A stretch of DNA of 51,668 nucleotides, taken from positions 1 through 51,668 of the forward strand of contig JAAZNF010000094.1 of NCBI GenBank assembly GCA_012798435.1, read 5' to 3'. The notes beneath the pieces are model-generated. The model searched no databases. It was given only the letters and a program-made list of their open reading frames with translations, and was not told the DNA's origin. The DNA is from Myxococcales bacterium. Lineage in GTDB: Bacteria; Myxococcota; B64-G9. Positions 17,333 to 25,392 of the stretch are shown in pieces. Each line of letters begins with the position of its first letter. The stretch's first letter is position 1. The position numbers were made by a program, and so were the translations under genes.

Positions 17333-19966
17333 TTGAAGAAGCCAGTAAAATTCGGCAAGTACTACCTCCTCGAGCGCATCAACATCGGTGGCATGGCCGA
17401 GGTCTTCAAGGCGAAGAGCCTGGGCGTGGAGGGGTTCGAGAAGCTGCTGGCCATCAAGCGCATCCTGCCCAACATCGCCGAGGACGAAGACTTCATCACC
17501 ATGTTCATCGACGAGGCCAAGATCGCGGTGCAGCTCTCCCACGCCAACATCGCCCAGATCTACGACCTCGGCAAGATCGACGACAGCTTCTTCATCGCCC
17601 TGGAGTACGTGGCCGGCAAGGACCTGCGCACCATCTGGGAGCGCCACCGCAAGCACAACCTGCTCCTGCCCATCCCGCTCTCCTGCTACGTGATGATCCG
17701 CGTGTGCGAGGGCCTGGACTACGCCCACCGCAAGAAGGACGCGGCCGGGCGCGACCTCAACATCGTGCACCGCGACGTGAGCCCGCAGAACATCCTGGTG
17801 GCCTACGAGGGCGAGGTCAAGATCATCGACTTCGGCATCGCCAAGGCGGCCAACAAGGCCAGCAAGACCCAGGCCGGCATCCTGAAGGGCAAGTTCGGTT
17901 ACATGAGCCCGGAGCAGGTGCGTGGCCTGCCCATCGATCGGCGCTCGGACATCTTTTCCGCGGGCATCATCCTGTACGAGCTGCTGACCGGCGAGCGGCT
18001 GTTCGTGGGAGAGAGCGACTTCTCCACGCTGGAGAAGGTCCGTAACGCCGAGATCCTGCCCCCCTCCACCTACAACCGCGCCATCCCCGAGGCGCTGGAG
18101 AAGATCGTCCTGCGCGCCCTAGCCAAGGATCCAGACGATCGCTTCGCCTCGGCCTACGACATGCAGGAGGAGCTGCAGCGCTTCCTCATCCTCAACAAGA
18201 CCAATTTCGCCCGCAAGGACCTGGCCGCCTATATGAAGCGGGCCTTCAAGACCGACATCGAGCGGGAGTTGGCGCGCCAGGCCGAGCACCAGGCGTTCTC
18301 CGGCGAGGCGGACGACTTCGGGCCGGAGGAGAGCACCGACCGGGGACCGTTGCGGGCGCCGGGCCGGCCGCCCTCGCGCAAGGAGATTCCAGCGGCCCCC
18401 GCGCCCAAGCCGGCCCCGCGCACGCCGACGCAGGAGCGTCCCCGCGCGGCCACCCCGCGGCCGGCTCGTCCGCCCCTGCGACCCGAACCCGAGCCCGAGC
18501 CCGAAACAGAGGTCGAGGCCGTCAGTGCAGAGGACGACGAGGACGACGACATCGAGACGGTGATCTTCGACACCCGCTCCGGCCTCCCTGAGAATCAGCC
18601 CACCCTGCCGGGGGATCCGCCGGCGCCGCCGGCTCGTCCGAAACCCGCCGCCGCGCCCCCCCGTCCGCGCCCGGCCGTGCTGGAGACGGCCTCGGAGGGC
18701 GAAACCACGCTCCCCGAGAAGATCTCGGCCAAGGCCGAGGAGCCGCCCCTGGCCGGCATGACACCGCAGCCCGCCCCCAGCCCGCCGCCGGTGGAAACCT
18801 TCTCCACCGGCGAGGCCACCCTGGCCGGCGAGCTGGAGTCGCCCCGCCGCCGGGGCTCGAAGCTGAACCTGGTCATCGTGATCCTGTCGTTGGCGGCGGT
18901 GGTCATCGTGGGGCTGGCGGTGGTCAAGTACCTCCAGCAGCGGGGCTACCTGGGGGGCAAGGCCGTGCTCCACGTACAGGTGATGCCGGCGGACGCGGAG
19001 ATCCTCCTCGATGGCGAGAGCAAGGGCGCCGGCTCGATGGACATCCGGGAGGTGAAGCCCGGCCGGCACGTGCTGCGCGCGCAGCGGGAGCCGTCGCACC
19101 AGCCCTACGAGGAGACCGTCGAGCTGCGCGCGGGGGAAGAGCGCACCCTGAACATCTCCATGAGCTTCATCCCGGCGGAGGTCGAGATCCAGGTGGAGCC
19201 GCCCAACGCTCGTGTGACCCTGAACGACCGTCTGGCGGCGGAGCGCAGCCCGGTGCACATCAGCGACCTGGTGCCCGGCCAGGAGCAGACGTTCGTTTTC
19301 GAGGCGTTCGGCTTCAAGAGCGAGACCCGCAAGTGGACGTTCAAGCCGCGCGAGAAGCGCACGGAGAAGATCTCGCTGGAGGAGCTGTTCTTCGACCTCG
19401 TGGTGGAGAGCGAGCCGGCCGGGGCTCAGGTGTTCCTGGATGGCGACCGCAAGGGTGTCACCGCGTTGCGGCTCAAGAAGCTCGCCGCCTCGATGAGCTA
19501 CCAGTTGATCCTCAAGCACCCGCGCTTTCCCGACTGGAACACCACGGTCCGCTACGATGGCAACCCGGAGCAGAAGATCCTCAAACGTTTCGGGGTGGAG
19601 GAAGGCCCGACCGACGACAAGGGCAAGGGCAAGACGGTAAAGCCGGATTCCAAGGGCGAACCGAAACCCGAGCCCAAGCCCGAGCCCAAGCCAAAGCCCA
19701 AGCCGGACAACAAGCCCAGGCCGAAGCCCGAGCCCAAGCCCGAGCCCAGACCGCAAGGCAAGGGCTTCTTGCGCCTCAACTCCAAGCCCTGGGGAGAGGT
19801 GATCATCGACGGCAAGAAGATCGGGGCCACCACCCCGCTGATCGACTACGAGCTTCCCGCCGGAAAACACACCATCACGGTGGAGTTCAACGGCGGCGGC
19901 GCCGAGACCATCGAGGTGGACATCGCCCCCGACGAGAAAGTCACCAAGACGCTCAAGAAGAAATAA
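17333..19966 (+). CDS. Transmembrane Ser/Thr protein kinase with extracytoplasmic PEGA domains
   Basis: 877 residues. Kinase domain (about 7-290): Gly-loop INIGGMAEVF, Lys42 (AIKRI), catalytic HRDVSPQN (Asp148), DFG (166-168), activation-segment end MSPEQ. A Pro/Ala- and Glu-rich linker (about 320-505) leads to one transmembrane helix (about 511-531). Outside lie three PEGA-like beta modules (from about 543), a KPEP-type repeat and a final PEGA module. It should phosphorylate cytoplasmic substrates in response to envelope cues. The start is TTG: an in-frame stop lies 12 codons upstream, there is no other start codon between, and the next ATG is inside the Gly-loop. Its stop abuts the first base of the convergent PEGA operon. 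Confidence 0.94.
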   Translation: MKKPVKFGKYYLLERINIGGMAEVFKAKSLGVEGFEKLLAIKRILPNIAEDEDFITMFIDEAKIAVQLSHANIAQIYDLGKIDDSFFIALEYVAGKDLRTIWERHRKHNLLLPIPLSCYVMIRVCEGLDYAHRKKDAAGRDLNIVHRDVSPQNILVAYEGEVKIIDFGIAKAANKASKTQAGILKGKFGYMSPEQVRGLPIDRRSDIFSAGIILYELLTGERLFVGESDFSTLEKVRNAEILPPSTYNRAIPEALEKIVLRALAKDPDDRFASAYDMQEELQRFLILNKTNFARKDLAAYMKRAFKTDIERELARQAEHQAFSGEADDFGPEESTDRGPLRAPGRPPSRKEIPAAPAPKPAPRTPTQERPRAATPRPARPPLRPEPEPEPETEVEAVSAEDDEDDDIETVIFDTRSGLPENQPTLPGDPPAPPARPKPAAAPPRPRPAVLETASEGETTLPEKISAKAEEPPLAGMTPQPAPSPPPVETFSTGEATLAGELESPRRRGSKLNLVIVILSLAAVVIVGLAVVKYLQQRGYLGGKAVLHVQVMPADAEILLDGESKGAGSMDIREVKPGRHVLRAQREPSHQPYEETVELRAGEERTLNISMSFIPAEVEIQVEPPNARVTLNDRLAAERSPVHISDLVPGQEQTFVFEAFGFKSETRKWTFKPREKRTEKISLEELFFDLVVESEPAGAQVFLDGDRKGVTALRLKKLAASMSYQLILKHPRFPDWNTTVRYDGNPEQKILKRFGVEEGPTDDKGKGKTVKPDSKGEPKPEPKPEPKPKPKPDNKPRPKPEPKPEPRPQGKGFLRLNSKPWGEVIIDGKKIGATTPLIDYELPAGKHTITVEFNGGGAETIEVDIAPDEKVTKTLKKK
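19661..19752 (+). repeat. CCCGAG/CCCAAG tandem repeat encoding a KPEP-type linker
   Basis: In-frame repeats of CCCGAG and CCCAAG hexamers encode an alternating Lys-Pro/Glu-Pro stretch between the third and last PEGA modules of the kinase. Such rods act as extended spacers across the periplasm. The repetitive DNA could change length by slippage without frameshift, because units are multiples of three. Confidence 0.75.
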
Positions 19967-24114: not shown

Positions 24115-25392
24115 TCAGAACTCGAGGACGATCTGACTTCGAGCCGCGTCCTGGCCCCCGGCCAGCAAGATGGCCAGGAGCGTCGTCACCGCCGCGCCGG
24201 CGCCCAGCGCCGTCCAGAACCACCAACGGCGGTACAGGGGCTTCTCTGCCTCCTCGAACCGCTCTTCCCCGGACAGGCGCGGCAGCGCACCCTCCGGTGC
24301 CGGGGCGGACGGGCCGGAGTGTACCACGGGGCCCGGCCCCGGGGAAAGCTCGGAGATCGCTTCGTCCACCGAGCGCGAAATGTCGCGGGCGTCCGGCCGG
24401 AAGCTGCCGCGCCGTTCGAAGAGCGGCAGGCCCGTGGAGACGTCGTATCCGACCATCAAGAAGCCGATCTCCGCGCCCGCGCGGGAGGTCCGGCCCAGCA
24501 CCAGCCGGTGGAGCCTCGCCCGGCGGGCCCGCTCCACCAGCGCGCGCGGCAGCGGCTCCCCCGCGCCTATGCGGTCGGAGGGGAACTCGCGCTGGAAGGC
24601 CGCAAGATCCGCGTATGGTTTCAGGCGGCAGGCCACCGGGGTGTCCTCGGCCGCCCCCACCGAGACCTGCCGCCCGAAGGGGATGTGCCCCGGGGCGCGC
24701 ACGGAGATCAGGTGATCGCCGGCCGGCAGGCGCTCGATCCGGACCGGCGCCAGACCCCGGAAGTGGCCGTCGACGAAGACCAGGGCCGGATCGGGCTGGG
24801 CGCTCACATCGATGGCGCCGCGCGGAGCGTCTTCCACCTCCCGCACCATGTGGGCGAAGGCTTCCAGCATGGCGGGCGGGAAGATGCGCGCGTCGAGGCG
24901 GTACTCCGGGTCGATGACCAGCAGCCGCCGGAAGGCGTCCTGGGCCTTGTCCCCCTGGCCCGAGAGGAGCCATACCGCGCCCAGGTAGGCGAGCGCCTTG
25001 CGGTGATCCCGGCTGGCGTCCTCGAGCAACTCCGCCGGCACCGCCTCGAAGGCTCGGACCGCCTCGAACAGCTCGCGCTCGGCGCGGTCCAGCTCCAGGT
25101 TCTCGTAGGCCGTGAGCCCCTCGGCCAGCCTCGCCCGCGGTGCCAGCAGCGGATCGGGCGGCGCGTCCACCACGAGCAGGCAGGCGGCGTCCCGGGCCTC
25201 CACGCCCGGTTGAGCGGCGAACTGCTCCAGGGTGAACCAGTACAGCAGGCCGGCCGCCCGGCGCGAGAAGACGTCCTGAGGCTCGATCCAGACCGAGATG
25301 CCTGAGGTTTCCGAGGCCCCGGCAGCGGCGCCCGGGAGGAGCCCGGCCAGCAGCAGCAGAAGCCGGGTCGTCCTGGTGGCGGTGGCGGGCAT
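24115..25392 (-). CDS. Exported PEGA-domain protein with C-terminal membrane anchor; first gene of the PEGA operon
   Basis: 425 residues. A signal peptide (TRLLLLLAGLLPGAAAGA) is followed by an alpha/beta domain, a TPR-like helical region (TAYENLELDRAERELFEAV), the family motif IFPPAMLEAF, a PEGA-like module (SAQPDPALVFVDGHFRG), a second alpha/beta domain, a linker, the transmembrane segment RWWFWTALGAGAAV and a tail ending IVLEF. PEGA modules are beta domains of envelope proteins whose function is mostly unknown. There is no ribosome site before the ATG and a promoter candidate ends close to it, so the transcript may be nearly leaderless. It is divergent from yebC. Confidence 0.87.
   Translation of the reverse strand: MPATATRTTRLLLLLAGLLPGAAAGASETSGISVWIEPQDVFSRRAAGLLYWFTLEQFAAQPGVEARDAACLLVVDAPPDPLLAPRARLAEGLTAYENLELDRAERELFEAVRAFEAVPAELLEDASRDHRKALAYLGAVWLLSGQGDKAQDAFRRLLVIDPEYRLDARIFPPAMLEAFAHMVREVEDAPRGAIDVSAQPDPALVFVDGHFRGLAPVRIERLPAGDHLISVRAPGHIPFGRQVSVGAAEDTPVACRLKPYADLAAFQREFPSDRIGAGEPLPRALVERARRARLHRLVLGRTSRAGAEIGFLMVGYDVSTGLPLFERRGSFRPDARDISRSVDEAISELSPGPGPVVHSGPSAPAPEGALPRLSGEERFEEAEKPLYRRWWFWTALGAGAAVTTLLAILLAGGQDAARSQIVLEF

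Follow-up and report, generated by a model that had tools for sequence, protein, structure and literature searches.

A transmembrane PEGA kinase and a convergent array of exported TPR-PEGA paralogues: a candidate envelope-sensing module in one family of Myxococcota

The kinases that most resemble the one considered here are the PASTA kinases (PknB/PrkC/Stk1), with which it shares a Hanks-type domain inside the cell, one transmembrane helix and repeated small extracytoplasmic domains. Its gene lies in a contig of a Myxococcales bacterium (GenBank JAAZNF010000094.1), convergent to an operon of four exported PEGA proteins, here named paralogues A to D, and it differs from the PASTA kinases in having four PEGA domains and no PASTA, and in being paired with this paralogue array. 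The PASTA-kinase model NF033483 scored 279.8 bits, against a cut-off of 450, and matched the kinase region only, while no PASTA domain was found with Pfam. PEGA (PF08308) has been described as a cell-surface domain (PMC2447325) and is listed among peptidoglycan-associating domains (PMC7159879). At this locus, it exceeded the Pfam gathering score in the kinase (four stretches), A, B and D.

Concerning the paralogues, Foldseek matches of a predicted model of B point tentatively to the TolB-N/LpoB/GNA1162/PelC periplasmic fold, from which they differ in that the alpha/beta domain is apparently split by an insertion of the TPR and PEGA parts, so that its two parts may be one interrupted domain, and in that A, B and C add a C-terminal transmembrane helix. 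TPR-PEGA-WWFW proteins of the same architecture occur in many genomes of the phylum Myxococcota, and no curated family of Pfam or NCBIfam other than PEGA matched this architecture above its cut-off. Membership in the gliding machinery was also considered and set aside, as no NCBIfam gliding model scored above cut-off. The original prediction knew of no described system with this layout, and no account of a kinase/PEGA-paralogue system was found in a search of the open-access literature; subscription papers lay mostly outside that search, so this negative does not prove absence. Ser/Thr kinases are very numerous in Myxococcota and their inputs mostly unknown; a kinase that is conserved and linked to exported partners supplies specific candidates for such inputs.

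The window, i.e., the whole stretch of 51,668 nucleotides (nt) analyzed, is a contig in its entirety and belongs to a draft genome of 5.05 Mb, 97% complete. The coordinates predicted for the kinase and the four-gene operon were exact (Table 1), and the kinase directly abuts the convergent operon as had been proposed: its stop codon ends at position 19966 and that of D begins at 19967, with zero spacer. The intergenic gaps A-B, B-C and C-D are about 23, 14 and 55 nt, respectively, and B, C and D are 21–30% identical to A.

The conservation of this arrangement was studied by tblastn searches with the window proteins as queries against regions from eight genomes of the same family, each of a different genus (G001–G008; the window genome is G000). 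Kinase and array were convergent in every one of the eight family genomes with the junction on a contig (G000–G007), so the synteny on which the prediction was to be judged holds inside the family wherever the junction is assembled. In two of these cases the contig holds little else of one partner, D being the sole array gene in G002 and the kinase end the sole kinase part in G005. In the ninth genome, G008, the array contig continues for 233 nt after D, and the kinase contig stops just past the kinase 3′ end. The content of the array varied: B was present wherever the array contig of a family genome extends far enough to include it, C was found in G001, G003, G005 and the window, and G003 was without D and A. 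Kinase-domain identity was 79–89% in seven other family genomes; for the closest orthologues outside the family, it was 67–78%. According to gene calls read by eye, an ABC-type permease flanks the kinase side in G001, G003, G006 and G007, and a YggS-like gene flanks the array side in G001, G003, G004, G007 and G008. The window genome has neither of them, and its five-gene block lies between a PilZ gene and yebC-ruvCAB. As both outer flanks differ there and the block is intact, it can be said that both flanks have changed at least once without breaking up the block.

Further kinase/TPR-PEGA pairs were sought with the best 150 TPR-PEGA and the best 150 kinase matches across 58 genomes, a basis that favours the window's family. 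Among the matches listed, at least 23 kinases, all in this family, had a TPR-PEGA gene no more than 8 kb away, 17 of them convergent, six in tandem with the kinase first and none divergent. Considering the window genome alone, six of the 14 WWFW loci (C21, C32, C73, C98, C100 and C118) were near one of the 43 kinases found in a genome-wide scan, with about one expected (binomial P about 3e-4 at a 4.5-kb cut-off). Several such loci, when mapped, combine a kinase with a TPR-(PEGA-)WWFW gene, and lipoprotein-like genes (one or two) are often present too, one with a CBM9-like domain. At a second conserved locus (L176, L177 and L173), a kinase with a glpK-like gene beside it faces a convergent TPR-PEGA-WWFW gene, accompanied by a lipoprotein-like gene, which in L176 contains a CBM9-like domain.

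The kinase matched Pfam Pkinase (PF00069) with E = 3.5e-39 and PEGA with E = 2.4e-28. The catalytic motifs of the Hanks type are intact (AIKR at residue 40, HRDV at 146 and DFG at 166), and hydropathy shows a single strong transmembrane segment. At least three PEGA modules had been predicted, and the Pfam protein scan raised the number to four. On the cytoplasmic side, the juxtamembrane acidic/Thr motif DDIETVIFDTR is a candidate phosphorylation or FHA docking site, and the motif STGEATLAG is likewise a candidate docking site. The codon before the conserved KFGK start was TTG or GTG in all eight same-family copies checked, a possible brake on kinase expression. Most same-family copies are without an in-frame upstream ATG, the exceptions being L062 and L066.

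The common architecture predicted for the paralogues was borne out by AlphaFold2 for B and D and by alignment for A and C. The model of B had a mean predicted local distance difference test score (pLDDT) of 88.6 and a predicted template-modelling score (pTM) of 0.74; for D, the values were 81.7 and 0.71. In both, the predicted fold runs from a beta-alpha-beta part through TPR-like helices and PEGA to an alpha-beta-beta-beta-alpha part. The PEGA of C scored 18.7 bits in the protein scan, versus a gathering score of 20.8, and 22.5 bits in the genome scan. When the B model was compared by Foldseek with the PDB, the PEGA part matched carboxypeptidase transthyretin-like domains, the helices matched TPRs, and the alpha/beta part matched the GNA1162/LpoB/TolB/PelC group with weak E values (0.009–0.08) and probabilities mostly of 0.85–1.00, at least one alignment covering part of the domain. 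A sequence profile built from 40 relatives gave matches to solved proteins essentially confined to the TPR part.

Three features of the array had not been noticed earlier. One is the four-cysteine motif of B (Table 1). Another is the C-terminal transmembrane helix of A, B and C, which opens with WWFW and is absent from D; the corresponding DNA pattern had 16 sites in the window genome versus none for the reversed pattern. The third is the tail of D, the final ~110 residues of which are predicted by AlphaFold2 to be disordered and bear two DPLDxxxxGTEDW boxes. After the WWFW helix, the chains of A, B and C finish in a short alternating stretch (IVLEF, IEFTF and VVFRF, respectively), and their basic residues are mostly before the helix, not after it. 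These 'xIxFxF' ends were considered as an outer-membrane beta-barrel signal and rejected, since relatives end in VYR, VLGIP and similar sequences.

We give an even chance to the interpretation that the locus encodes a kinase-centred envelope-sensing module with dedicated exported partners. All four paralogues would be exported, A, B and C being held in the membrane by the WWFW helix and D being soluble and displaying its boxes on the disordered tail. With their TPR scaffold, PEGA and TolB/LpoB/GNA1162-like alpha/beta domain, they would build a periplasmic hetero-assembly that engages both the PEGA stalk of the kinase and a component of the envelope. An altered assembly would change kinase activity, and the signal would enter the cell via autophosphorylation of the juxtamembrane Thr motifs and phosphorylation of cytosolic substrates. 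Several observations weigh against such a module. Kinase and D, being convergent, share no promoter. Since several family genomes share the wider neighbourhood (ABC transporter and YggS-like gene), ordinary synteny may account for part of the family-wide conservation. In the window genome, the orientation of the pairs varies, being divergent at C32 and C129, and the 4.5-kb cut-off was picked after the loci had been seen. Moreover, PEGA (68 matches) and kinases abound in this genome, so the sharing of PEGA is weak evidence. Outside the family, where the comparison was made with the kinase domain alone as the query, three-gene arrays were found in G013, G026 and G020, and the regions examined there contained no kinase (the G020 contig is only 6.9 kb long and that of G026 stops shortly after the array); the kinase orthologues of these genomes, with kinase domains 76–78% identical, are on other contigs, where no TPR-PEGA gene neighbours them. 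A two-gene pair, an A/B/C-like gene and then D, is present in Archangium and other Myxococcaceae-like genomes, again without kinase, between a topoisomerase-type gene (assigned by eye) and an S49 peptidase gene. The Myxococcota loci L088 and L095 have a convergent kinase about 50% identical. As array and kinase orthologue lie apart outside the family, the pairing is not obligatory; it is a family-level association with scattered parallels. The proposal that paralogues and kinase exterior belong to one assembly is thus strengthened by the family-wide pairing and by the recurrence at further loci, and it does not hold as a general rule: paralogue operons mostly without the kinase, the outcome named beforehand as contrary to it, are absent inside the family and are what the wider phylum displays.

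The arrays without kinase, the kinase orthologues located elsewhere in the same genomes, the number of PEGA matches and the wider synteny would all be expected if the array were an envelope complex of structural or housekeeping function and the kinase an unrelated PEGA receptor, its neighbour since the ancestor of the family, both having PEGA because it is common in the phylum. This explanation is quite possible, if somewhat doubtful in our opinion, but it does not readily accommodate the recurrence of kinase/TPR-PEGA pairs at independent loci, nor a five-gene block kept while both flanks changed. It seems improbable that the kinase instead acts from inside the cell to control how the array is expressed or assembled, e.g., via a phosphorylated regulator, with the paralogues as output and not as sensory input. 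Such a role would suit an enzyme that signals in the cytoplasm and has candidate docking motifs with phospho-Thr, and neighbouring genes are often functionally coupled; however, the five-gene block contains no regulator gene, and this role would leave the PEGA domains that the kinase has outside the cytoplasm unexplained.

Another observation concerns the box of D. Wherever the 3′ end of a translated locus is complete, the stop codon comes directly after the last box. A degenerate DNA pattern for the box had 35 sites in 20 of 58 genomes, the reversed control giving none; with one mismatch allowed, 111 of the 195 Myxococcota genomes scanned had matches, the reversed control being at zero in all. 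Myxococcaceae-like genomes usually have two matches about 93–96 nt apart, which are both boxes of one D gene. In the Myxococcaceae-like loci L220–L222, the two-box D gene has as neighbours a topoisomerase-type gene and a large gene for an S49 (SppA-type) peptidase. Nearly all the searched genomes of family f8 carry the box, and this family appears to be Myxococcaceae-like, as the Archangium loci share the gene pair; the box is therefore a small, testable handle that is probably accessible in cultivable myxobacteria. The conserved 12-residue box was not found in the open-access literature searched.

The box was also found in an exported, coiled-coil-like protein, here called box-first, of ten genomes (Table 1), in the form DPL(D/N)xxxxGTE(D/E/G)W. 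In all ten, it occurs within a few residues after the apparent signal peptide (cleavage sites read by eye), so the mature chain should start with the box. The box-first protein of the window genome had no Pfam match. Rather speculatively, and with the chances against it, DPLDxxxxGTEDW could be a terminal docking tag of the Myxococcota envelope that has so far escaped recognition: a shared receptor in the periplasm or outer membrane would capture the C-terminus of D-type TPR-PEGA proteins and the mature N-terminus of the box-first protein, and in the window's family the receptor-bound assembly would be wired to the PEGA kinase.

Table 1. Coordinates of the kinase, the paralogue array and the box-bearing proteins (window positions unless a genome and contig are given).
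Feature	Position	Strand	Remarks
Transmembrane Hanks-type Ser/Thr kinase, 877 residues, TTG start	17333..19966	+	Pfam Pkinase and four PEGA stretches, transmembrane segment, catalytic motifs
Cytoplasmic kinase domain, residues 13–272	17369..18148	+	Pfam
Juxtamembrane acidic/Thr motif DDIETVIFDTR	18545..18577	+	conserved in orthologues as DDEDDDIETVVxDxR
Second conserved juxtamembrane Thr motif STGEATLAG	18803..18829	+	conserved in orthologues as STGExTLA
Kinase transmembrane helix, residues 513–531	18869..18925	+	hydropathy 3.28
Four extracytoplasmic PEGA domains	18965..19954	+	genome-scan matches 18965–19159, 19394–19585 and 19769–19954; fourth stretch on protein scan
Paralogue A, first operon gene	24115..25392	-	same architecture by alignment; C-terminal WWFW helix; ends IVLEF
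Paralogue B, best conserved member	22742..24091	-	C-terminal WWFW helix; ends IEFTF
WWFW transmembrane helix of B	22781..22852	-	
Four-cysteine motif of B, CNTDSDCTTGEVCDAASGRC	22892..22951	-	cysteines invariant in all aligned B orthologues
Paralogue C, TTG start	21465..22727	-	same architecture by alignment; C-terminal WWFW helix; ends VVFRF
Paralogue D	19967..21409	-	signal peptide, alpha/beta-TPR-PEGA-alpha/beta, disordered charged tail, no transmembrane helix
Upstream box copy in D, DPLAGHSGTESW	20270..20305	-	
C-terminal box, last 12 residues of D, DPLDEVDGTEDW	19970..20005	-	
Box-first protein, box in window genome	G000:C86:2473-2508		locus L214
Box-first protein, other copies	G001:C26, G003:C18, G004:C180, G006:C395, G007:C98, G008:C122, G013:C50, G020:C403, G026:C47		

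Concerning the neighbouring genes, yebC-ruvC-ruvA-ruvB follow the array (window 25524–28388); they were considered as part of the system and rejected, because other family genomes are without these genes beside the block. In G020, which belongs to another family (L166), the kinase orthologue is ~1.1 kb from ruvB, without the array, a possible old linkage. Elsewhere in the window, six consecutive minus-strand genes (483–8881) start with or hold receiver-like sequence (VDDEP, VDDD) and resemble a tandem set of the response-regulator type, and positions 10237–15228 encode an apparently exported protein of 1663 residues with repeated Cys-rich segments.

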